Below, one piece after another: positions 13,276 through 64,000 of a stretch of DNA of 64,000 bases. The notes under the pieces were generated by a model. The model did no database searches. It saw nothing but the letters and a program-made list of their open reading frames with translations, and was not told the DNA's origin. Every line of letters starts with the position of its first letter. Position 1 is the first letter of the stretch. The position numbers were made by a program, and so were the translations under genes. The stretch covers positions 4,710,501 through 4,774,500 of the forward strand of contig NZ_CP018099.1 in assembly GCF_001886815.1 (NCBI RefSeq), in the 5' to 3' direction. This DNA comes from Caldithrix abyssi DSM 13497. Its GTDB lineage: Bacteria; Calditrichota; Calditrichia; Calditrichales; Calditrichaceae.

Positions 13276-13701
13276 ATGAAACAGGTTACCATTTCTAAAA
13301 AATTCGAGTTTTCGGCCAGTCATCGTTACTGGAACGCCGAATGGTCGGAAGAAAAAAACAACGAAGTTTTTGGTTTGTGCACCAGCCCTTACGGCCACGG
13401 CCACAATTATGAACTGCACGTTACGGTCAGCGGAAAGGTAGATCCGGTAACGGGCATGATCATCAATCTTTCAACGCTAAAAAAAATTGCCGGGAAAATT
13501 GTGGATCAGTTTGACCACAAATTCTTAAATCTGGATACGCCTTATTTTAAAGATCGCATCCCCACTACAGAAAACATTGCGCTGGTTTTGTTCGACCTTC
13601 TGGATGAACAAATCCGCAAGGAAAACGGCATCAAGCTGGAACGAATTCGCCTTTACGAAAGGCATGATCTTTATGTGGATGTCTGGCGGGAGGAAGAATG
13701 A
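13276..13701 (+). CDS. 6-pyruvoyl-tetrahydropterin synthase / QueD family protein 1
   Basis: A 141-residue PTPS-family enzyme. The Zn ligands H16 (SASH), H41 and H43 (GHGHNY) are present, with catalytic Cys35 (FGLCTSP), the D80-H81 pair (QFDHKFLN) and E129 (LYERH), which binds the pterin ring in the family. PTPS acts on 7,8-dihydroneopterin triphosphate to give 6-pyruvoyl-tetrahydropterin; QueD relatives make carboxytetrahydropterin for queuosine. The ATG follows an AGGAAGG site. It overlaps the second PTPS-like gene by 4 bp (ATGA), and GTP cyclohydrolase I, which supplies the substrate, follows. Confidence 0.93.
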   Translation: MKQVTISKKFEFSASHRYWNAEWSEEKNNEVFGLCTSPYGHGHNYELHVTVSGKVDPVTGMIINLSTLKKIAGKIVDQFDHKFLNLDTPYFKDRIPTTENIALVLFDLLDEQIRKENGIKLERIRLYERHDLYVDVWREEE

Positions 13702-14114
13702 GCCGTCGACAGATCAGCCTGTCTAAAGTTTACACTTTTAGCGCCGCGCATCGTTTACACGCGCCGCAAAAAGACGACGATTTTAACCGACGGATTTACG
13801 ACAAATGCAACAACCCCAACGGCCACGGCCACGACTACTACCTGGAGGTTACGGTGCGAGGGGCGGTTGACGAACAAAGCGGCATGATCATCCCTTTACC
13901 GACGCTGGACAGCGCGGTTCACTCGGTAATCGATCCGCTGGAGCACCGCCATTTCGATCTTGAAATCGACTATTTTAAAACGCGGCGCAGCACCGGCGAA
14001 GAAATCATTCAATTTTTGTGGCAGGAGCTCGAAAAATATTTAGGGAACAAACTTTTCAAGATTAAATTATGGGAAACGAACAACAACTATTTTGAACTGG
14101 AAAGGAAAGCCTGA
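13698..14114 (+). CDS. 6-pyruvoyl-tetrahydropterin synthase / QueD family protein 2
   Basis: A 138-residue paralogue of the preceding gene, translationally coupled to it by an ATGA overlap. Zn ligands H18, H43 and H45 and the catalytic Cys37 (DKCNNPNGHGHDY) are kept, and E126 occupies the pterin-anchoring position (LWETN). The usual Asp-His catalytic pair is replaced by E82-H83 (PLEHRHFD). The two proteins differ enough to be separate subunits or enzymes, for example a heteromer, or one PTPS and one QueD-like activity. The substitution is visible; its effect on activity is unknown. Confidence 0.92.
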   Translation: MSRRQISLSKVYTFSAAHRLHAPQKDDDFNRRIYDKCNNPNGHGHDYYLEVTVRGAVDEQSGMIIPLPTLDSAVHSVIDPLEHRHFDLEIDYFKTRRSTGEEIIQFLWQELEKYLGNKLFKIKLWETNNNYFELERKA

Positions 14115-14117
14115 AAA

Positions 14118-14690
14118 ATGAAAAGTATGGAAGAAGCCGTTCGTCAAATTTTGCTGGGCATTGGCGAGGATCCGGAACGCCAGGGATTGAAAAATACGCC
14201 GTTCCGCGTGGCTAAAATGTTTCGCGAAGTAACCAAAGGCTACCAGGCCGATCCCCAAAAAATCATTAACAATGCTATTTTTGATGTTGATTACGATGAG
14301 ATGGTGGTGGTGGCCAACATCGAATATTACAGCCTGTGCGAACACCATTTGCTGCCTTTTTTTGGCGTGGTTCATGTGGGCTACATTCCGCGCGGCAAAG
14401 TGGTGGGGCTGAGCAAGATTCCGCGCATTGTGGACATGTTTGCCCGTCGCCTGCAAATTCAGGAAAAAATGACGCTGGAAATCGCCCACCTGTTAAACGA
14501 CGCGTTAGACCCCGACGGCGTTGGCGTTGTGGTAGAAGGCCAACACATGTGCATGATGATGCGCGGCGTTCAAAAAGACAAAGCTAAAATGATCACCTCG
14601 GCCATGCTCGGCTCGTTTAAAGACGACGAAAAGACACGCGCCGAATTTTTAAGCCTGATAAGGAGTCCTCGCGTTGAAGCCCCCTATTGA
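14118..14690 (+). CDS. folE: GTP cyclohydrolase I
   Basis: A 190-residue enzyme that converts GTP to 7,8-dihydroneopterin triphosphate, the entry step for folate, biopterin and queuosine. The Zn ligands C74, H77 (CEHHLLPF) and C145 ([10 protein letters not shown]) are present, as is the [20 protein letters not shown] core. Length is typical of the bacterial FolE core. It starts 3 bp after the second PTPS gene and overlaps the SDR gene by 17 bp, so it belongs to a tight pterin operon rather than a folate operon; no other folate gene is nearby. Confidence 0.96.
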
Positions 14691-15387
14691 TCCATGGATT
14701 CTCATTACCGGAGCCACTAAAGGAATTGGCCTGGCCACTACCAGGCGACTGGCAGCCGCCGGCTGGAACCTCATTTTGATTGCCAGAAGCGAATCGCGCT
14801 TAAGCGAATTGAGCCATCAAATTCACGTGACAGGCGGCAAGGTGCAATGGTTTAAAGCAGACCTGACCTGCGCCCATGATCTAAATCAACTGGGCGACTG
14901 GATAAAATCTAAACAGATGAAGCTTAAAGCCGCCGTGCTCAACGCCGGAATCGCCAAAACCGGCCGGGCGCTGGAAATGCCGTTAAACGACTGGCGTCAG
15001 TTAATGGAAACCAATCTGCTGGCGCCGGTTGCCCTTTTACAGGTTTTAAAAGAGTTTTTTACCGATTACGCGCAGATTATCTTCATTAACTCCGTTGCCG
15101 GTAAAACAGTTTTTCCAGAATGGGGCGCTTACGCCGCTTCTAAATTTGCCCTGCGCGCCCTGGCCGAAACGTTGCGTCTTGAACTCGCTCCGCAGAAAAT
15201 CCGCGTTTCGTCCGTTTTTCCCGCCTCGGTTAACACCCCGCTGCACGACCGCCTGGGGTTGAACTGGGACCGCCAGAACATGCTGCAGCCCGAGGATGTG
15301 GCCCGTGGCGTGGAATGGGCGCTAAACGCTCCGCAGCACGTCAACTTGAATGAAATTTCACTGGAAAATTTGAACGGCCTCTTTTAA
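14674..15387 (+). CDS. Short-chain dehydrogenase/reductase, candidate sepiapterin-reductase-like enzyme
   Basis: A 237-residue classical SDR. The nucleotide motif is TGATKGIG near residues 12-19, LNAGIAK follows at the structural Asn-Ala-Gly position, and the catalytic Ser and YAASK tetrad residues lie at about 143-160. The TTG start is chosen because an AAGGAG site inside folE sits 8 nt upstream and the nearby ATG at 14694 is out of frame. The position after GTP cyclohydrolase and PTPS matches the third step of tetrahydrobiopterin synthesis (sepiapterin reductase), but SDR sequences do not reveal their substrate, so this is inference from context. Confidence 0.85.
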
Positions 15388-53423: not shown

Positions 53424-55319
53424 TTACCGCAGTAAAATCATTTTTTTACTGGCCCGGTAGTTTCCGGCTTTAAGCATATAGATGTAAACGCCGCTGGCCA
53501 GATCGGCGGCATTTAATCGGTATTCGTAGCTACCCGCATTTTGCTGCGCATTGACCAGTTCCATCACTTTTTTGCCGCTCAAATCATAAACAGCCAGCTC
53601 AACATGCGCGGCTTGCGGCAGGTCGTAACGGATACTGGTGAATGGATTAAATGGGTTGGGATAATTTTGCGCCAGATAAAAGCCCTGCGGCAGACCGCTT
53701 TTAAGCTGATTGATGGCGCTGGGTGGGTTGCCCAGATCGACTTTGGCGGCAACCATGACCTCTTTAGTGTCATCGTTTTGCACAAAGGCGATCAATTCGC
53801 AATTTTCTTTGACCACATCGGCCGGGATGTCAAAAGTAATGCTGTTCTGCACCTGGTCTCCGGCAGAAGGCGCGCTGGCGCTTTCCCATAACTTTGTGCC
53901 GTTGGCATCGGGAATCATCAGACGTTCCACAAAGTGCAGAGAATCCATGCTTGTTTCCCAGTTGTAGGCAATATGCGATTCGCACAATGCCCAGCGGATG
54001 TAGAGATTTTTATCGAAGGTTACGCTTTCGTAGGTAACGGTAGCGGTGGCAGAGATGGAATTTCCGTTTTCGGTCCAGGCAATATCCATGGTAAAGGGCG
54101 TATATTCCTGCCGTTCAGCCTGGTACAACGCTTCATAATCGGCGTAAATGCCAGACCAGTCGCTGCCTGCCGATGCCCCGCCCACGCGCTTCCGGTCGCC
54201 GCCAAAGTAACAGGTCGGGTAGGCGCTTACGCCGTAATAGGAACGGCGCGCCGAGGCATACGAATTGTCAAAAGGATCGTTGCCGCTGAATCCGCCATGA
54301 TAGGCAATAATAGCGACATTATTAGGATAAGCTTTATACAGACTGTCCAGCGCTTCTGCGGCCCCGGGGCAATAGGTACACTCGGTGTCTGTAAATTCTT
54401 CGGGCAAAACAACCTCTTTTTGACTGGCGTAGGAGTTGATAAACTTTGTGGCAATATCATTGCTCGCATCCTGATCGGTGCTTAAAAGGGTTTTAACGTA
54501 AAAGGTGTAGCCTTCCTGGGCAAATGTGTAGTTATCAAAGGTTACCTGCTGTTTGGCCCCGGGCGCAAGAGCGGTTACGGTTTTGGTGCTTATGGCCACC
54601 GGATTGTCGTTCCAGTCGTAATAACCAAATTCAACATCAAACGTTTCCGTGTTTTTGCCCTCGTTTTTAACCGTAGCCATCGGCTGAACCGTTGTGTTTG
54701 GCGCGTAATGCGCGTCCATATCCAGCGAAAAGGCCATCACATCGTGATCTGATGGAACGACAACTTTTACATCGTCTATGTACCACTGGTAGTTAGGACT
54801 ACCAGGATTGGAATAGTGAAAACCTACATAAACCGTGCTCTGCCCGGCATAAGCCGAAAGATCAACCTCAACCACGCCGCCGGAAAAGCCTTCGATAGTG
54901 TGATTGGAAGGCGTCATTTCCAGAATTGTGGTAAAAGATGAACTGCTGCTGGGCGATGTGGTAGAAACGGCGATATAATGCGTGCCGCCGCCGCTTTCCC
55001 AGCCATCAGCATCCTCGTAAAAATAGAGCGTGGCTCTGGTTACGCCCGACAGATCCAGAGCCGGCGTTACCAGCCAGATATCGCAGGGGTAAATAAATTG
55101 CACTTCCGCCAGGGCCGAATATGAACCCGTTCGACTTTTTTCTGAGCTTTGCTGCCAGCTTTCTAACGAAAAACTATCGGAAAACTTCGTCCATCCGCTG
55201 GGCGGAAAGCCGCTTTCAAACGACTCGTCAAGAATAGCATTAGAAACCTTGTTCACTCCCCCAAAAACCAATGTGATAGATAAAAATAAAAGAGCAAAAG
55301 AAAGTATTAATCCTCTCAT
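53424..55319 (-). CDS. Omp28-family secreted protein with MAM-like N-domain and T9SS sorting domain
   Basis: A 631-residue protein. After a signal peptide comes a jelly-roll (choice-of-anchor J / MAM-like) domain (SFESGFPPSGWTKFSDSFS, about residues 30-190), a CARDB-like Ig domain (about 192-295), then an Omp28-type thioredoxin-like domain with LPEEFTDTECTYCPGAAEAL (Cys314, Cys317) and VSAYPTCYFGGDR. The end is a T9SS type A sorting domain (QNYPNPFNPFTSIRYDLP ... GVYIYMLKAG). It should be exported by the type IX system and may carry a redox-active CxxC. Stop is 77 bp from the next gene of the cluster. Confidence 0.9.
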   Translation of the reverse strand: MRGLILSFALLFLSITLVFGGVNKVSNAILDESFESGFPPSGWTKFSDSFSLESWQQSSEKSRTGSYSALAEVQFIYPCDIWLVTPALDLSGVTRATLYFYEDADGWESGGGTHYIAVSTTSPSSSSSFTTILEMTPSNHTIEGFSGGVVEVDLSAYAGQSTVYVGFHYSNPGSPNYQWYIDDVKVVVPSDHDVMAFSLDMDAHYAPNTTVQPMATVKNEGKNTETFDVEFGYYDWNDNPVAISTKTVTALAPGAKQQVTFDNYTFAQEGYTFYVKTLLSTDQDASNDIATKFINSYASQKEVVLPEEFTDTECTYCPGAAEALDSLYKAYPNNVAIIAYHGGFSGNDPFDNSYASARRSYYGVSAYPTCYFGGDRKRVGGASAGSDWSGIYADYEALYQAERQEYTPFTMDIAWTENGNSISATATVTYESVTFDKNLYIRWALCESHIAYNWETSMDSLHFVERLMIPDANGTKLWESASAPSAGDQVQNSITFDIPADVVKENCELIAFVQNDDTKEVMVAAKVDLGNPPSAINQLKSGLPQGFYLAQNYPNPFNPFTSIRYDLPQAAHVELAVYDLSGKKVMELVNAQQNAGSYEYRLNAADLASGVYIYMLKAGNYRASKKMILLR

Positions 55320-55329
55320 ACATCCCTCC

Positions 55330-56514
55330 TCAATTAATGCCGGTTTGCAGTATTTCCTTCGATTTTATGTTTTGAACAAAAGCAACGATTTTGCTGTGGG
55401 CAAACTGCCAGTTAGCCGGCCACTCTCTGCTAAACGTGAACGCCCTATTGTCCAGATTTGCCCCCTGCCGATCGGTCAAAAAACCGCGAAAAACCCACTC
55501 AAAATCTTTGATTCCATTAGACCCCGGCGGGCTGTCGTAGTGAATGCTGTCTTCGGCAATGGCCACAAATAATCTAAGGTCGGCATTGTCCAGTACATTG
55601 CCATAATCAAACAACTCAACATGAACTTCCAGTTGAGCGCCAACCAGTTGTTTTTCTATGGAAATGGCTAACGGCGTGTTTTGCGAAAGTAAACTTTGGT
55701 TGAATTTATTGACGATCTCATCATAATTATTGGGATCAACGCCAATAGTGCCTTTTACCTTCAAAGTGGGCAGTGTTTGCACGCCATAAAAATTAACGCG
55801 CTCGTCCACATCTTTAGGCGCTACTTTATAAAAAGGATCGTTTGGACTGGGCCAGTTGGCAAAATATTCGATAATGGCATAAGGGCTGTTGGCATGTTCA
55901 TGCGTAAATTTAAGCAAGTTTTGCGTGGCGGCCACGCAGGGCACGCAGGAAACATTGGCAAACGATTCAAACAAAACGCGTTGTTCAATGGCCAGTTGAA
56001 GACGCACATCCACCTCTTCCTGTTCGGTGGAAGCAATCAACGTGTCTTTAACCACAAAGCCGTTTTTGACCAGTGTAATGCGGTGGGCGCCGGGCTCGAC
56101 GATTAATGTATCCGGCGTTACTTTGCCGGTATTCTGATCATTTACAAATATGGCTGCCCCTGCGGGATCGCTTTCAATATTCAACGTAACGGTGGTGATA
56201 ATTTTTTGCAGTTCGAAGAGAATCGCCGCCGTTTCGGCTTCTTTAACCGTCACTACAAAAGAATCCTGAACGGCCCGATAACCGTCCAGAAACACGCGCA
56301 GCACATGGTTGCCAACCGGAACCTGTTTAACGGTGTCCGGCGTTACCAGACCGGTCGCCGTTCCGTCCAGAATAATCGACGCTCCGGACGGCTGGGAGTT
56401 AACAAAAATATTACCCGTTACATCGCTTTGATCTGCATTTTCTACTGGCTGTTTAACCCCGCAGGCGATTAAAAAAAGAAAGCCGGAAAAAAGAAATTTG
56501 ACCGCTAAATTCAT
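55330..56514 (-). CDS. Lipoprotein with two PEGA domains and an Omp28-like thioredoxin-fold domain
   Basis: A 394-residue protein. The lipobox is FLIACG (Cys at about 18). Two PEGA domains follow (IFVNSQPSGASIILDGTATG at about 36-100 and LNIESDPAGAAIFVNDQNTG at about 112-172), then an Omp28-like domain with VLFESFANVSCVPCVAATQN (Cys190, Cys193) and VQTLPTLKVKG, the cis-Pro loop. It lies 10 bp before the larger Omp28-type gene and is first in the cluster, so a membrane-anchored partner of the secreted Omp28 protein is likely. Precise role unknown. Confidence 0.87.
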   Translation of the reverse strand: MNLAVKFLFSGFLFLIACGVKQPVENADQSDVTGNIFVNSQPSGASIILDGTATGLVTPDTVKQVPVGNHVLRVFLDGYRAVQDSFVVTVKEAETAAILFELQKIITTVTLNIESDPAGAAIFVNDQNTGKVTPDTLIVEPGAHRITLVKNGFVVKDTLIASTEQEEVDVRLQLAIEQRVLFESFANVSCVPCVAATQNLLKFTHEHANSPYAIIEYFANWPSPNDPFYKVAPKDVDERVNFYGVQTLPTLKVKGTIGVDPNNYDEIVNKFNQSLLSQNTPLAISIEKQLVGAQLEVHVELFDYGNVLDNADLRLFVAIAEDSIHYDSPPGSNGIKDFEWVFRGFLTDRQGANLDNRAFTFSREWPANWQFAHSKIVAFVQNIKSKEILQTGIN

Positions 56515-59499: not shown

Positions 59500-60846
59500 A
59501 TGCAATCTCATCGAGGCGAGTGGAGTTCAAAAATTGGTTTTATCCTTGCGGCATCCGGTTCGGCCATCGGACTGGGCAACATCTGGCGTTATCCGTATAT
59601 TGTCGGTAAAAATGGCGGCGCGGCTTTCGTCATTATTTACCTTTTGATCGTGGTAATCATCGGATTACCCTACATGCTCGGCGAACTGGCACTGGGCAGA
59701 TCGTCGCAAAAAAATCCGGTGGGAGCCATTGGCGCCATTAAACCCGGCTCCTGGTGGAAAGGGGTGGGCTATCTTGGCGTATTAACCGGCCTTGGCATTT
59801 TATCCTTTTACGGCGTCATCGCCGGCTGGACCGTCGGTTATGTTTTTAAAATGTTTAGCGGCGCCCCCGGAAACTTTGCCGCTTTTATATCCGAACCGGT
59901 TCAGGTTACTCTGCTTCTGGCCTTTTTCATCTTTATTACGGCGGCTATTGTGCATGGCGGCGTTTCCGGTGGCATCGAACGCTGGTCTAAAATTTTAATG
60001 CCCATATTGTTTGTATTAATGGTTATACTCATTATTTATGCCGTATCTTTACCCGGATCTGGCGCCGGCCTGCGTTTTTATTTGATGCCCGACTTCAGTA
60101 AAATTGACGGGAACGTGATTCTGGCGGCGCTGGGGCAGGCCTTCTTCTCTCTTAGCCTTGGCATGGGATTAATGATCACCTATGGTAGCTATGTCACCAA
60201 ATCCGATGATCTTTTTTCCTCGGCCGGCTACATTGTCTTTTTTGATTCGCTCATCGCCATAATGTCCGGCCTGATTATTTTCCCCGCACTTTTTGCCAGT
60301 GGGCAGGACCCGGAAGCCGGCGCCAAGCTGGTTTTTGTAGTCTTCCCTGAATTATTCATGACTATGCCCTTCGGCTCCATTATCGGCGGCATCTTTTTTA
60401 TTTTACTTTCCGTTGCCGCTTTAACTTCTACCATTTCCCTATTAGAAGTGCCCGTGGCCTTTTTAGTAGATGAAAAAAAATTCCATCGCAAACGGATTGT
60501 TTGGGTGGTGGCTGGCATCGCTTTTTTGCTGGGCCTGCCCTCGGCTCTTTCACAGGGCGCCAACGATTTCTTTTCAAACTTCGGCTTAATCCCCGAACGC
60601 CTTGCAGATCCGGACTTTTTAAGCCAGATGAGTTTTGTCTTCGGTGATTTTTCGCTGGCTTTTGGAGCGCTATTACTGTCCATCTTCATCGGCTGGGTGT
60701 GGGGAGCAAAGGCCGCAGCCGCGGAAATTGCACAGGGCTCCCGATTTTTTGGCAAGGTTTTTAATATTTGGGTCATCATGATGCGTTATGTTATTCCGCT
60801 GTCAATTTTCATCATCCTCTTAAATCTTTTCGGCCTGTTCAATTGA
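59500..60846 (+). CDS. Sodium-dependent transporter, NSS (SNF) family
   Basis: A 448-residue protein with about 11-12 transmembrane helices. The N-terminal WSSKIGFILAASGSAIGLGN followed by IWRYPYIVGKNGG is the signature of LeuT-type neurotransmitter:sodium symporters, and the unwound helix-1 Gly-rich part holds Na and substrate sites in the family. Bacterial members import amino acids such as tryptophan, tyrosine or leucine. A GGGAGG site precedes the ATG. It is a single-gene unit: a strong terminator follows. Substrate cannot be deduced. Confidence 0.94.
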   Translation: MQSHRGEWSSKIGFILAASGSAIGLGNIWRYPYIVGKNGGAAFVIIYLLIVVIIGLPYMLGELALGRSSQKNPVGAIGAIKPGSWWKGVGYLGVLTGLGILSFYGVIAGWTVGYVFKMFSGAPGNFAAFISEPVQVTLLLAFFIFITAAIVHGGVSGGIERWSKILMPILFVLMVILIIYAVSLPGSGAGLRFYLMPDFSKIDGNVILAALGQAFFSLSLGMGLMITYGSYVTKSDDLFSSAGYIVFFDSLIAIMSGLIIFPALFASGQDPEAGAKLVFVVFPELFMTMPFGSIIGGIFFILLSVAALTSTISLLEVPVAFLVDEKKFHRKRIVWVVAGIAFLLGLPSALSQGANDFFSNFGLIPERLADPDFLSQMSFVFGDFSLAFGALLLSIFIGWVWGAKAAAAEIAQGSRFFGKVFNIWVIMMRYVIPLSIFIILLNLFGLFN

Positions 60847-60876
60847 TTTTACTCCGAAATTGAATTATCTTTTTTT

Positions 60877-60915
60877 GAAGCCTTTGAAAGTTCAAAGGCT
60901 TCAAATATTTTTTTT
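60877..60915 (+). terminator. Intrinsic terminator after the NSS transporter gene
   Basis: GAAGCCTTTG (60877-60886) and CAAAGGCTTC (60893-60902) form a 10-bp stem, extended by A-T pairs, followed by AAATATTTTTTTT. Confidence 0.9.
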
Positions 60916-60938: not shown

Positions 60939-62711
60939 ATGGCTTCCTCAAAGCGTTCTCAACTAATTTATGAGCGGCACGCTGACTATGAGATACCGCC
61001 CTTAATTCCTCTGCTGCCCATTGAAGAGTTGTACCATCTCGAAGAGTTAAAATTACGTTCCAATGCGGCAACCAGAACGTTCATTAAATTCGTTTTTCAA
61101 TTGTCCGGACTGACTCGTTTTTACATTCGGCTTCAAAAAAATCTTGAGCAGATTCTGCAAAGCACCAACATGCGCGGTCGGGCGCTCTACCTGCCGGTGG
61201 TTTCCGCCACGCTTGCCCTGGCTGACGATCCTCAAAAAAACTCGTTGTTGGAACGATCCGCTTCACTAATCAGGGCCTGTCGTTCTTTTTATTCCGATAT
61301 TCGCTCCGGAAAACTGGAACAGGATAGATGGAAGGGCAAACCGTTAGAGATGGGACAGTACCCCAATTTTTTTGCCGCTAATGTGGTTGTCGATGGAAAG
61401 CGCATTGAACTTTTCAAAAGCCCGCATGATCATCAAATTTTGGTCATGATTAAAAACCACGCCTACTTAATAGACATCGAAGATTGGAAGGACGCGCAGT
61501 TTGATTTCAAATTTCAGAAAACGTTGCAACGGATAGCGGAACAGTGTGCAACCAGCGGCGAGCCTGTGGGCCTGCTCTCTGCGCCGGCGTCTTTAACACA
61601 AATTAAAATTTTTAAAGAGCTGCGCAAAAACTGCGAAAATCTACAGAACCTTGAACGTTTACAACACGTCTTTGTCACTCTTTGCCTGGAACCGGACCTG
61701 CACCCCCGGACAACAGAAGAAGCTTATCGGCTGGCACACAGCGCTAACTTTTCCAACCGCTGGTGGCATAGCAGCCTGCAGATCGTGGTCTTTGGCAACG
61801 GCAAAAGCTGCCTGATCGGCAACTTTAGCGCCTACCTGGATGGCAATGTAATGATGCGCGGCACGGCCGAAATTCAAAAACGCGCGCGCCAGATTCAGGT
61901 GCAAATTTTGCCGCCTTCTTTTGATCAATCTTTTCCCTTAAAAAAATTGAGCTGGCGGGTGCCCAAAAAATTGTATCAACTTGCGCAGAAAGACCTGCAG
62001 CGCATCAAAGACCGCAATCAACAGAGCGTATTTGAATTAAAGGCCGCTGGCAGCGCTTTCTTTAAAGAAAAAAAGATTTCGGCCATTCCCGTATTTGTCA
62101 TTGCTTTGCACGCGACCATTAAACAATTTACCGGCAGGCACCCCAACATCCACCAGTTTGTTTCGCTTTCGCACTATCGCTGCATGGATCTGACCACTGT
62201 CAATGTCAGCACCGCACAGGTGAAAGCATTTGTGGAGCAATTCAACAACCGTCAGCATTTTTCACCCGCACTTTACGCAAAATTGATGGACGCGGTACGA
62301 TCTCAAAAGGAGATCATCGCCCGTCGGCGCCAATATCTCTCTTTTGCCGACATCCTGACTCTCTTCTTTTTAAACGCTTCTCCCATCAAAAGAAGCGGGG
62401 CGCGGGTTCTGATTCTCTTTGCCCTGCGCTTACTAAAAAGTTTGCATTTACTTACGCTCGAAAAGCGCGAAGTGTTAATCTCCCATCCGGCCCTGCACCC
62501 GGAAGTTCCGCTTGTGGGCAGGCCCGGCATCCGGCTGCCCTACGTAAAATACCTTGGCCTGCATTACCAGATATGGCCAGAGAAGATTGTAATCACTTAC
62601 ATGCCGGCCATTCACTGGTCTGTAAGTAATGAAATCTTTACTCAAAAACTCGAAGCAAACCTGAGGCGCCTTAAAGAGTTGATCGCTTCTGCTACGCAAT
62701 TTTCATCCTGA
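60939..62711 (+). CDS. Choline/carnitine acyltransferase-like protein without the catalytic His
   Basis: A 590-residue protein of the length of carnitine acyltransferases (about 600). Landmarks in order: LPIEELYHLEEL near 26-37, KPLEMGQYPNFF near 134-145, HDHQILVMIKNHAYLIDIED near 163-182, NRWWHSSLQIVVFGNGKSCL at 273-292, SHYRCMDLTTVNVSTAQVKA at 411-430, and a C-terminal region like the last beta-sheet. Animal enzymes have NRWYDK..., then EHAAAEG with the catalytic His, and a GRTxTIRS motif. Here EH is replaced by NFS (residues 295-297) and the TIRS motif by TTVNVS. It may be inactive or act with a different chemistry. The neighbours give no clear clue. Confidence 0.75.
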   Translation: MASSKRSQLIYERHADYEIPPLIPLLPIEELYHLEELKLRSNAATRTFIKFVFQLSGLTRFYIRLQKNLEQILQSTNMRGRALYLPVVSATLALADDPQKNSLLERSASLIRACRSFYSDIRSGKLEQDRWKGKPLEMGQYPNFFAANVVVDGKRIELFKSPHDHQILVMIKNHAYLIDIEDWKDAQFDFKFQKTLQRIAEQCATSGEPVGLLSAPASLTQIKIFKELRKNCENLQNLERLQHVFVTLCLEPDLHPRTTEEAYRLAHSANFSNRWWHSSLQIVVFGNGKSCLIGNFSAYLDGNVMMRGTAEIQKRARQIQVQILPPSFDQSFPLKKLSWRVPKKLYQLAQKDLQRIKDRNQQSVFELKAAGSAFFKEKKISAIPVFVIALHATIKQFTGRHPNIHQFVSLSHYRCMDLTTVNVSTAQVKAFVEQFNNRQHFSPALYAKLMDAVRSQKEIIARRRQYLSFADILTLFFLNASPIKRSGARVLILFALRLLKSLHLLTLEKREVLISHPALHPEVPLVGRPGIRLPYVKYLGLHYQIWPEKIVITYMPAIHWSVSNEIFTQKLEANLRRLKELIASATQFSS

Positions 62712-62788: not shown

Positions 62789-64000
62789 ATGGATGTGTTC
62801 CGCTTATTTCGCCAGCTATGGCCCTATTTAATGCGTTACAGACTCAAGCTTTTTTTGGGTTTAATTTTTATCGTCATCAGTAATTTGATCGCCATCGTCA
62901 ATCCCCAGATTGTGCGCCAGGCCATCGATTATTTAAAAGGCGATATCCAGACCATGCGCCTTTTCCAATATGCAGGATTAATCGTTTTAATCACCCTGGT
63001 TCAGGGCGTTTTTCGTTTTTTAATGCGCAGAACGGTTATCGTGGTTTCGCGTTTGGTGGAATTTGATCTGCGCAACGAGCTTTTTGCCCGTCTTCAAAGC
63101 CTTTCGCAAAACTTCTTTCAGCGTACGCCAACCGGCGATCTCATCGCCCGGATGACCAGCGATTTAAACGCCATTCGCTCGGTAATGGGCCCGGGCATCA
63201 TGTACACCATCAACACCGCCACCACCATGATTCTGGTTTTTGTGATGATGATAAGTATTAGCAGGCTTCTGACGCTCATCGCCTTACTGCCCATTCCATT
63301 GCTGGTTTTTCTGGTCAGCTATTTCAGCCGGCAGATCAACAAACGTTACTCGGCGGTTCAGGCGCAGTTTGCCGAAATCAGCACCAGAGTTCAGGAAAAT
63401 CTTGCTGGCATCCGCATCATCAAATCTTACGTTAAAGAAAAAAGTGAACTGCAGGATTTTAACCGCATTAACCGCGAATACATCAACAAAAGCCTGCACT
63501 ATGTAAAGGTGCATGCGGCGTTCAGACCGATGATGATGCTGCTGGTGGGGCTTAGCGTGGTGTTAACCCTGTTAATCGGCGGGCGGTTGATTATTTCCGG
63601 GACGATCACCCTGGGTCAGTTTGTAGCCTTTAACATGTACCTGGGAATGCTCGTCTGGCCTTCGATCGCGCTGGGCTGGGTGCTTGGCCTGTTTTACCAG
63701 GGCGTGGCTTCCATGAAACGCCTGAACCTGATCTTTGACGCCCGGCCGGATATCGTCGACGCCCCCGACGTTAAAAAAGTGACGCGACTGCATGGCGCCA
63801 TTCGCTTTGAACGCCTCAACTTTTCATACGCCAACGGCTCTTCAGAAGTTTTAAAAGATATCGATTTTCAGGTTGAAGCCGGACAGGTGGTTGCCTTAAT
63901 CGGCCGAACGGGAAGCGGCAAATCTACCATCATCAAGCTAATTGCGCGGATTTACGACGCCCCCGATGATTCCATTTTGATCGACGATATTCCCATCAAA
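62789..64000 (+). CDS. ABC exporter, MsbA-like half transporter (3' truncated by window)
   Basis: The first 404 codons of a fused ABC exporter; the frame stays open to the window edge. Six transmembrane helices span about residues 17-300, with the coupling-helix region RMTSDLNAIRSVMGPG and the ENLAGIRIIKSYVKE motif. The nucleotide-binding domain starts near 335 (IRFERLNFSYANGSSEVL) and the Walker A GRTGSGKST lies at about 375-383; the rest is beyond the window. Such half-size proteins form homodimers or heterodimers that export lipid A, lipids or drugs. The ATG at 62789 is the first in frame. Confidence 0.93.
   Translation, partial: MDVFRLFRQLWPYLMRYRLKLFLGLIFIVISNLIAIVNPQIVRQAIDYLKGDIQTMRLFQYAGLIVLITLVQGVFRFLMRRTVIVVSRLVEFDLRNELFARLQSLSQNFFQRTPTGDLIARMTSDLNAIRSVMGPGIMYTINTATTMILVFVMMISISRLLTLIALLPIPLLVFLVSYFSRQINKRYSAVQAQFAEISTRVQENLAGIRIIKSYVKEKSELQDFNRINREYINKSLHYVKVHAAFRPMMMLLVGLSVVLTLLIGGRLIISGTITLGQFVAFNMYLGMLVWPSIALGWVLGLFYQGVASMKRLNLIFDARPDIVDAPDVKKVTRLHGAIRFERLNFSYANGSSEVLKDIDFQVEAGQVVALIGRTGSGKSTIIKLIARIYDAPDDSILIDDIPIK

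Follow-up and report, generated by a model that had tools for sequence, protein, structure and literature searches.

A bacterial protein family with the carnitine-acyltransferase fold but no catalytic His, and its probable link to NRPS/PKS machinery

The protein described here is encoded toward the 3' end of the window, the 64,000-nucleotide stretch of Caldithrix abyssi DSM 13497 DNA that was analyzed as a whole. Its ORF is complete, starting at an ATG at 60939 just downstream of a GGAGG sequence and terminated by a stop codon ending at 62711, and it lies between a symporter gene and an ABC exporter gene of the same orientation.

59500..60846, + strand: upstream neighbour, sodium:neurotransmitter symporter family (SNF) protein (PF00209)
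60874..60905, + strand: terminator-like hairpin of 14 pairs with a T-rich tail, between the symporter and CAT-like genes (consensus match)
60939..62711, + strand: carnitine-acyltransferase (CAT)-fold protein without the catalytic His, 590 aa (PF00755, 131.5 bits; AlphaFold2 model)
62789..64000, + strand: downstream neighbour, ABC exporter of 584 aa (PF00664 and PF00005), extending beyond the window

Eight terminator-like hairpins were found in the region against 5.9 expected, and the stem at 60874..60905 was the longest by far. Two further gene groups in the window were recorded. Two tandem 6-pyruvoyl-tetrahydropterin synthase genes, a GTP cyclohydrolase I gene, and a short-chain dehydrogenase gene stand in a row at 13276-15387 (+), which looks like a tetrahydrobiopterin-type pterin operon, unusual for such a bacterium. 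At 53424-56514 (-), two adjoining Omp28-like proteins are encoded, of which one carries PEGA repeats and the other a Por secretion tail.

The initial annotation had described the 590-aa protein as a full-length homologue of choline/carnitine acyltransferases lacking the catalytic His, and had proposed a profile comparison and a structural superposition. The profile search returned PF00755 as the sole Pfam family, with 131.5 bits (E-value, 5e-38) against a curated cut-off of 22.3 bits. A phmmer search with the protein found human ChAT (1e-13) and CrAT (3e-8), and the solved ChAT, CrAT, and CPT2 were all retrieved by sequence; with such E-values, the resemblance to ChAT and CrAT is therefore well above chance. 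The AlphaFold2 model, built with 17 relatives, showed a pLDDT of 91.6 and a pTM of 0.91, and its low-confidence part was confined to loop 297-301. Superposition demonstrated the two-domain carnitine-acyltransferase fold over the full length of the protein (Z 31.0–31.8, 3.2–4.0 Å, about 550 residues), with rat CPT2 as the best match (Z 31.8, 3.5 Å, 552 residues), followed by ChAT (Z 31.7) and CrAT (Z 31.0), and with Foldseek TM values of 0.72–0.79 for this group. The next structural matches, all at Z ≤13.6, came from the NRPS condensation superfamily and related proteins, far behind CPT2, ChAT, and CrAT, and the fold had thus been named correctly from the raw sequence. The model of a PKS-linked family member (pLDDT 89.4, Z 32.4 over about 550 residues) gave the same match picture.

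Five residues are common to all carnitine acyltransferases, namely H343, K419, K423, D430, and E453; in CrAT, Lys419 and Lys423 serve the 3'-phosphate of CoA, and the Asp430–Glu453 pair is located at the pantetheine site (PMC11852590). The corresponding segments of the 590-aa protein, and the motifs that are characteristic of its relatives, are as follows.

61755..61826, + strand: NRWW...LQIVVFGNG...GNF, residues 273-296, with Phe296 at 61824-61826 (ChAT/CrAT profile alignment)
61833..61883, + strand: YLDGNVMMRGTAEIQKR, residues 299-315, replacing the EHxxxEG segment and the following helix (family conservation)
62052..62156, + strand: equivalents of the CrAT CoA site, S372 (K419), K376 (K423), I383 (D430), and Q406 (E453) (alignment and family counts)
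62481..62489, + strand: SHP, residues 515-517, with H516 invariant (24/24 covering members)
62517..62570, + strand: GRPGIRLPYVKYLGLHYQ, residues 527-544, with R528 and H542 (GLHYQ) invariant, within the best-conserved part of the protein (family conservation)

The landmarks NRWW...LQIVVFGNG and GNFSAYLDGN were present as first annotated, at residues 273-303. In the HMMER alignment with the family profile, CEHSPF-DG/YEHAA-AEG of ChAT/CrAT lay over cnFsaYldG. In this alignment Phe296 faces the catalytic His, and the family has one extra residue ahead of DG. Shifting the gap before DG placed Ser297 there instead, a position occupied by S, T, N, or G across the family, and the catalytic position was devoid of His under both alignments, as the initial annotation had held. 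Phe occupied the place of CrAT H343 in all 26 family members, and segment 285-312 was His-free except in L081, where a His stands beside the Phe (CHFSAYLDG), and in L082, where one is found at the position of Arg307. The carnitine-binding TxR motif had also been described as missing, and GRTDTIRS of CrAT was indeed aligned to cmdLatavv. At the CoA site, the K419 position was R, K, Q, S, G, T, or E, the K423 position was highly variable, the D430 position was V, I, or A, and the E453 position was Gln in 26/26 members. With these residues and Phe at the five positions, conventional CoA-dependent acyl transfer to carnitine by the family appears very unlikely, as judged from the alignments.

The family set comprised 26 homologous proteins from Calditrichota, Chloroflexota, Acidobacteriota, a Bacteroidota bin, and one further phylum. 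A bacterial member had been called unusual, which the genome samples bore out: PF00755 occurred in 10 of 385 genomes of a mixed sample (nine of these ten in the phylum of C. abyssi), in 5 of 396 genomes of a Chloroflexota class (one of the five being weak), in 1 of 250 genomes of an Acidobacteriota class, and in 5 of 82 genomes of the phylum of L027 and L028. The PF00755 search of about 1,100 genomes yielded no orthologue with an intact His. The sole His-intact bacterial PF00755 protein encountered was a distant, secreted protein of G227 (L063:10654-12759, -; 140 bits) with an intact ECEHSIVDG motif and a signal-peptide-like N-terminus; it lacks SHP and GLHYQ, branches very far away on the tree, and had no NRPS/PKS gene noticed beside it at its locus. 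NCBIfam holds no model for the His-less family, plasmid records gave no match to the protein, and full-text searches of open-access papers turned up no account of a His-less or bacterial NRPS-linked PF00755 member. By homology the group belongs to a known family, from which its lost active site and its new context set it apart, and as a conserved bacterial His-less family it is apparently undescribed so far.

The loss of catalytic and cofactor residues might also be explained by the decay of an ordinary carnitine acyltransferase into a pseudogene, or by an error in its sequence. Full-length open frames across several phyla, 35 residues invariant among the 26 members, the fixation of Phe in every one of them, and confident models for two members make this explanation barely credible; for the family as a whole, a pseudogene or sequencing artefact was ruled out by the recurrence of the same pattern in 26 proteins.

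The two best-conserved 24-residue segments of the protein were residues 522-545 (EVPLVGRPGIRLPYVKYLGLHYQI) and 283-306 (VVFGNGKSCLIGNFSAYLDGNVMM), which map to the C-terminal strands and to the loop that lost its His, respectively, and G302, N303, M305, E311, and R315 within residues 299-315 were invariant in 26/26 members. The old active-site loop seems too strictly kept for an inert scaffold, and a ligand is therefore expected there. The strands of the C-terminal part of the model follow the order 512-515, 525-527, 539-545, and 550-557. Because the C-terminal part gave no sequence alignment to CrAT, the profile aligning no further than the helix before SHP and thus reaching neither H516 nor H542, SHP was placed by strand order in the model, according to which it should correspond to the strand of CrAT with the STS motif.

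Genomic contexts connected many members with carrier-protein machinery. An NRPS/PKS gene neighbourhood was found for 14 of the 26 members in several phyla, frequently including a type II thioesterase, a phosphopantetheinyl transferase (PPTase), an MFS exporter, or a sulfotransferase. The C. abyssi genome (G000) holds two copies of the CAT-like protein, the second of which (G000:C1:1681881-1683692, -) is located in such a neighbourhood. It is flanked on the same strand by a PKS-NRPS protein (KS-AT-DH-ER-ACP-C-A-T) and a KS-AT-KR-ACP protein, and the region, around 1.63–1.70 Mb, also encodes a loading domain that resembles a fatty-acyl-AMP ligase, together with ACP and KS, and additional NRPS proteins, one with an internal sulfotransferase domain. 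Similar PKS/NRPS neighbours were identified for the copies of G002/L036 by Pfam and of G021/L031, G023/L033, and G031/L034 as judged from ORFs. The CAT-like gene is followed at its 3' side by a KS-AT-KR-ACP gene in L028. In other phyla, it has NRPS proteins, an MFS exporter, a type II thioesterase, and a PPTase as neighbours in L032 and L079, and is adjoined by NRPS-like ORFs and an MFS gene in L080 and by NRPS, sulfotransferase, and MFS genes in L081; a thioesterase and a PPTase adjoin a tandem double CAT-like protein in L027, and a CAT-like/MFS fusion has NRPS and sulfotransferase genes nearby in L039. The two paralogues fused in L027 are the same two that are encoded by separate genes in L079 (tree support 100/100 each), and their being kept together points to a pair working jointly. 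All members read are separate ORFs, fused only to a further CAT-like copy (L027) or to an MFS exporter (L039).

Several further features were recorded. The L039 fusion (L039:3265-6813, +) is a 1182-aa ORF composed of an MFS exporter and a CAT-like protein, in which a peptide similar to EAVTTKEDAPLSSGGFSRP recurs about four times, imperfectly, as an insertion following the former catalytic helix. In the Bacteroidota bin (L029:248-6781, +), the CAT-like gene comes after sulfate-activation genes (APS kinase, a PAPS-reductase-domain protein, an EF-Tu-like GTPase with an APS-kinase segment, and an inositol-phosphatase family protein) and a gene for a 733-aa protein without a Pfam family. Sulfotransferase was rejected as a linked marker: PF13469 was present in 44 of the 51 genomes of the set, and its presence in a genome therefore says little about the CAT-like gene. 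NRPS megasynthases of 1,000–3,500 aa with an internal PF13469 domain (L065:8393-17371, -, and many relatives) were also widespread among genomes of Calditrichota and other groups, including some that lack the CAT-like protein; the Pfam order in the G000 protein is A, sulfotransferase, C, A, and such internal sulfotransferases possibly lead to sulfated lipopeptides.

The association was also apparent on the tree and in genome content. The NRPS/PKS label required 2 changes on the tree, compared with a mean of 9.4 after shuffling, and none of 500 shuffles was as low. Condensation domains were present in 20/20 genomes with the CAT-like protein, kinship being ignored in this count, and, within the phylum, in 9/9 genomes with the protein versus 16/31 without it (Fisher p 0.007, uncorrected for kinship). 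The protein is missing from many NRPS-bearing relatives. Based on these data, we consider it somewhat probable that a conserved bacterial CAT-fold family, now without its catalytic His and the residues that bound CoA, was recruited to carrier-protein-based biosynthesis (NRPS/PKS). The CAT-fold protein would act in trans as an accessory of the assembly line, no longer catalyzing CoA-dependent transfer, and its interdomain pocket, once used for CoA and carnitine, may now accept a partner protein or a chain, either released or still bound to phosphopantetheine. The initial annotation had left the choice between "inactive or repurposed"; the NRPS/PKS linkage of the family supports the latter. The former is less secure: the segment that lost its His is among the most conserved, and the C-terminal strands contain two invariant His residues.

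Twelve members, the window copy and 11 others, had no adjoining NRPS/PKS gene, several of the 11 being encoded on contigs of 3–9 kb. The window copy groups with L024, L026, and L030 in a clade without any adjoining cluster, and the direct NRPS/PKS evidence thus stems from paralogues. This clade is well separated (support 96/91), and in three genomes, C. abyssi, G002, and G003 (the latter two represented by L024 and L026, with the same gene order), the symporter gene is next to the CAT-like gene, as would suit a separate housekeeping or sensing role unrelated to NRPS/PKS, such as the binding of an acyl or quaternary-amine ligand. We regard such a role as improbable: the terminator-like hairpin lies between the two genes, the invariant residues of the clade are identical to those of cluster-linked members, and condensation domains were found in all genomes of the clade. 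The symporter is probably outside the system of the CAT-like protein. The recruitment reading would presumably extend to the window copy as a protein serving the same type of machinery from outside the cluster; this is its weakest step, derived from the shared invariant residues and genome content.

Recruitment might alternatively have preserved catalysis. The protein may still be an enzyme acting on carrier proteins, in which H516 of SHP or H542 of GLHYQ replaces the lost His and chains are transferred or released, the phosphopantetheine arm entering from the side where CoA once did, with no need of the lysines for the 3'-phosphate. Both His residues occur without exception in the 24 members whose sequences span these positions and are missing from the His-intact relative, the old catalytic loop remains highly conserved, the strand order would set SHP at the STS strand, members adjoin carrier-protein machinery, and the cAT domains of fungi, which share this fold, off-load polyketides (PMC10901484). 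However, those fungal domains retain the usual catalytic His and active-site Ser (PMC10901484), the assignment of the C-terminal part lacks a sequence alignment to CrAT, and SHP and GLHYQ may be structural, and we consider this alternative unlikely. In its most specific form, the family would represent a new class of trans-acting assembly-line enzymes in which the catalytic His has left the loop of the N-domain and now lies in strands of the C-domain (SHP or GLHYQ), and which transfer or release carrier-protein-bound lipopeptide or polyketide chains with no use of CoA or carnitine, a combination that we hold doubtful as a whole.

Under the recruitment reading, the CAT-like protein points to biosynthetic clusters that have received little study in thermophilic and uncultivated phyla, and a Phe-fixed bacterial branch beside NRPS/PKS would be either an assembly-line pseudoenzyme family or a relocated-base enzyme. 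Carnitine acyltransferases are known chiefly as eukaryotic metabolic enzymes. The family shares with the choline/carnitine acyltransferases CrAT, CrOT, CPT2, and ChAT the whole two-domain fold and the landmark order LEMGQY, NRWW, LQIVV, DG, but differs from them in lacking the catalytic His, the CoA lysines, the Asp430/Glu453 pair, and GRTDTIRS, in its own invariant motifs NFxxYxDGNxM, SHP, and GRPG...GLHYQ, and in its bacterial NRPS/PKS context. The X domain of glycopeptide NRPSs shows that a CAT-like domain can act as a platform for the NRPS although its catalytic motif is disrupted (PMC6565677, PMC11546977); its fold class is related to that of the family, and it is a possible functional analogue as a platform. 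In contrast to the separate CAT-like protein, it is a condensation-superfamily domain inside the NRPS (Z 11–13.6 to the 590-aa model), and no P450-type partner gene, as for the X-domain role, stood out by eye in the loci read. The cAT domains of fungal highly reducing PKSs (LtbA and Tv6-931) likewise place the same fold family beside polyketide machinery; they are C-terminal fusions to the PKS that carry the catalytic His, whereas the members of the present family are separate ORFs with Phe in its place.
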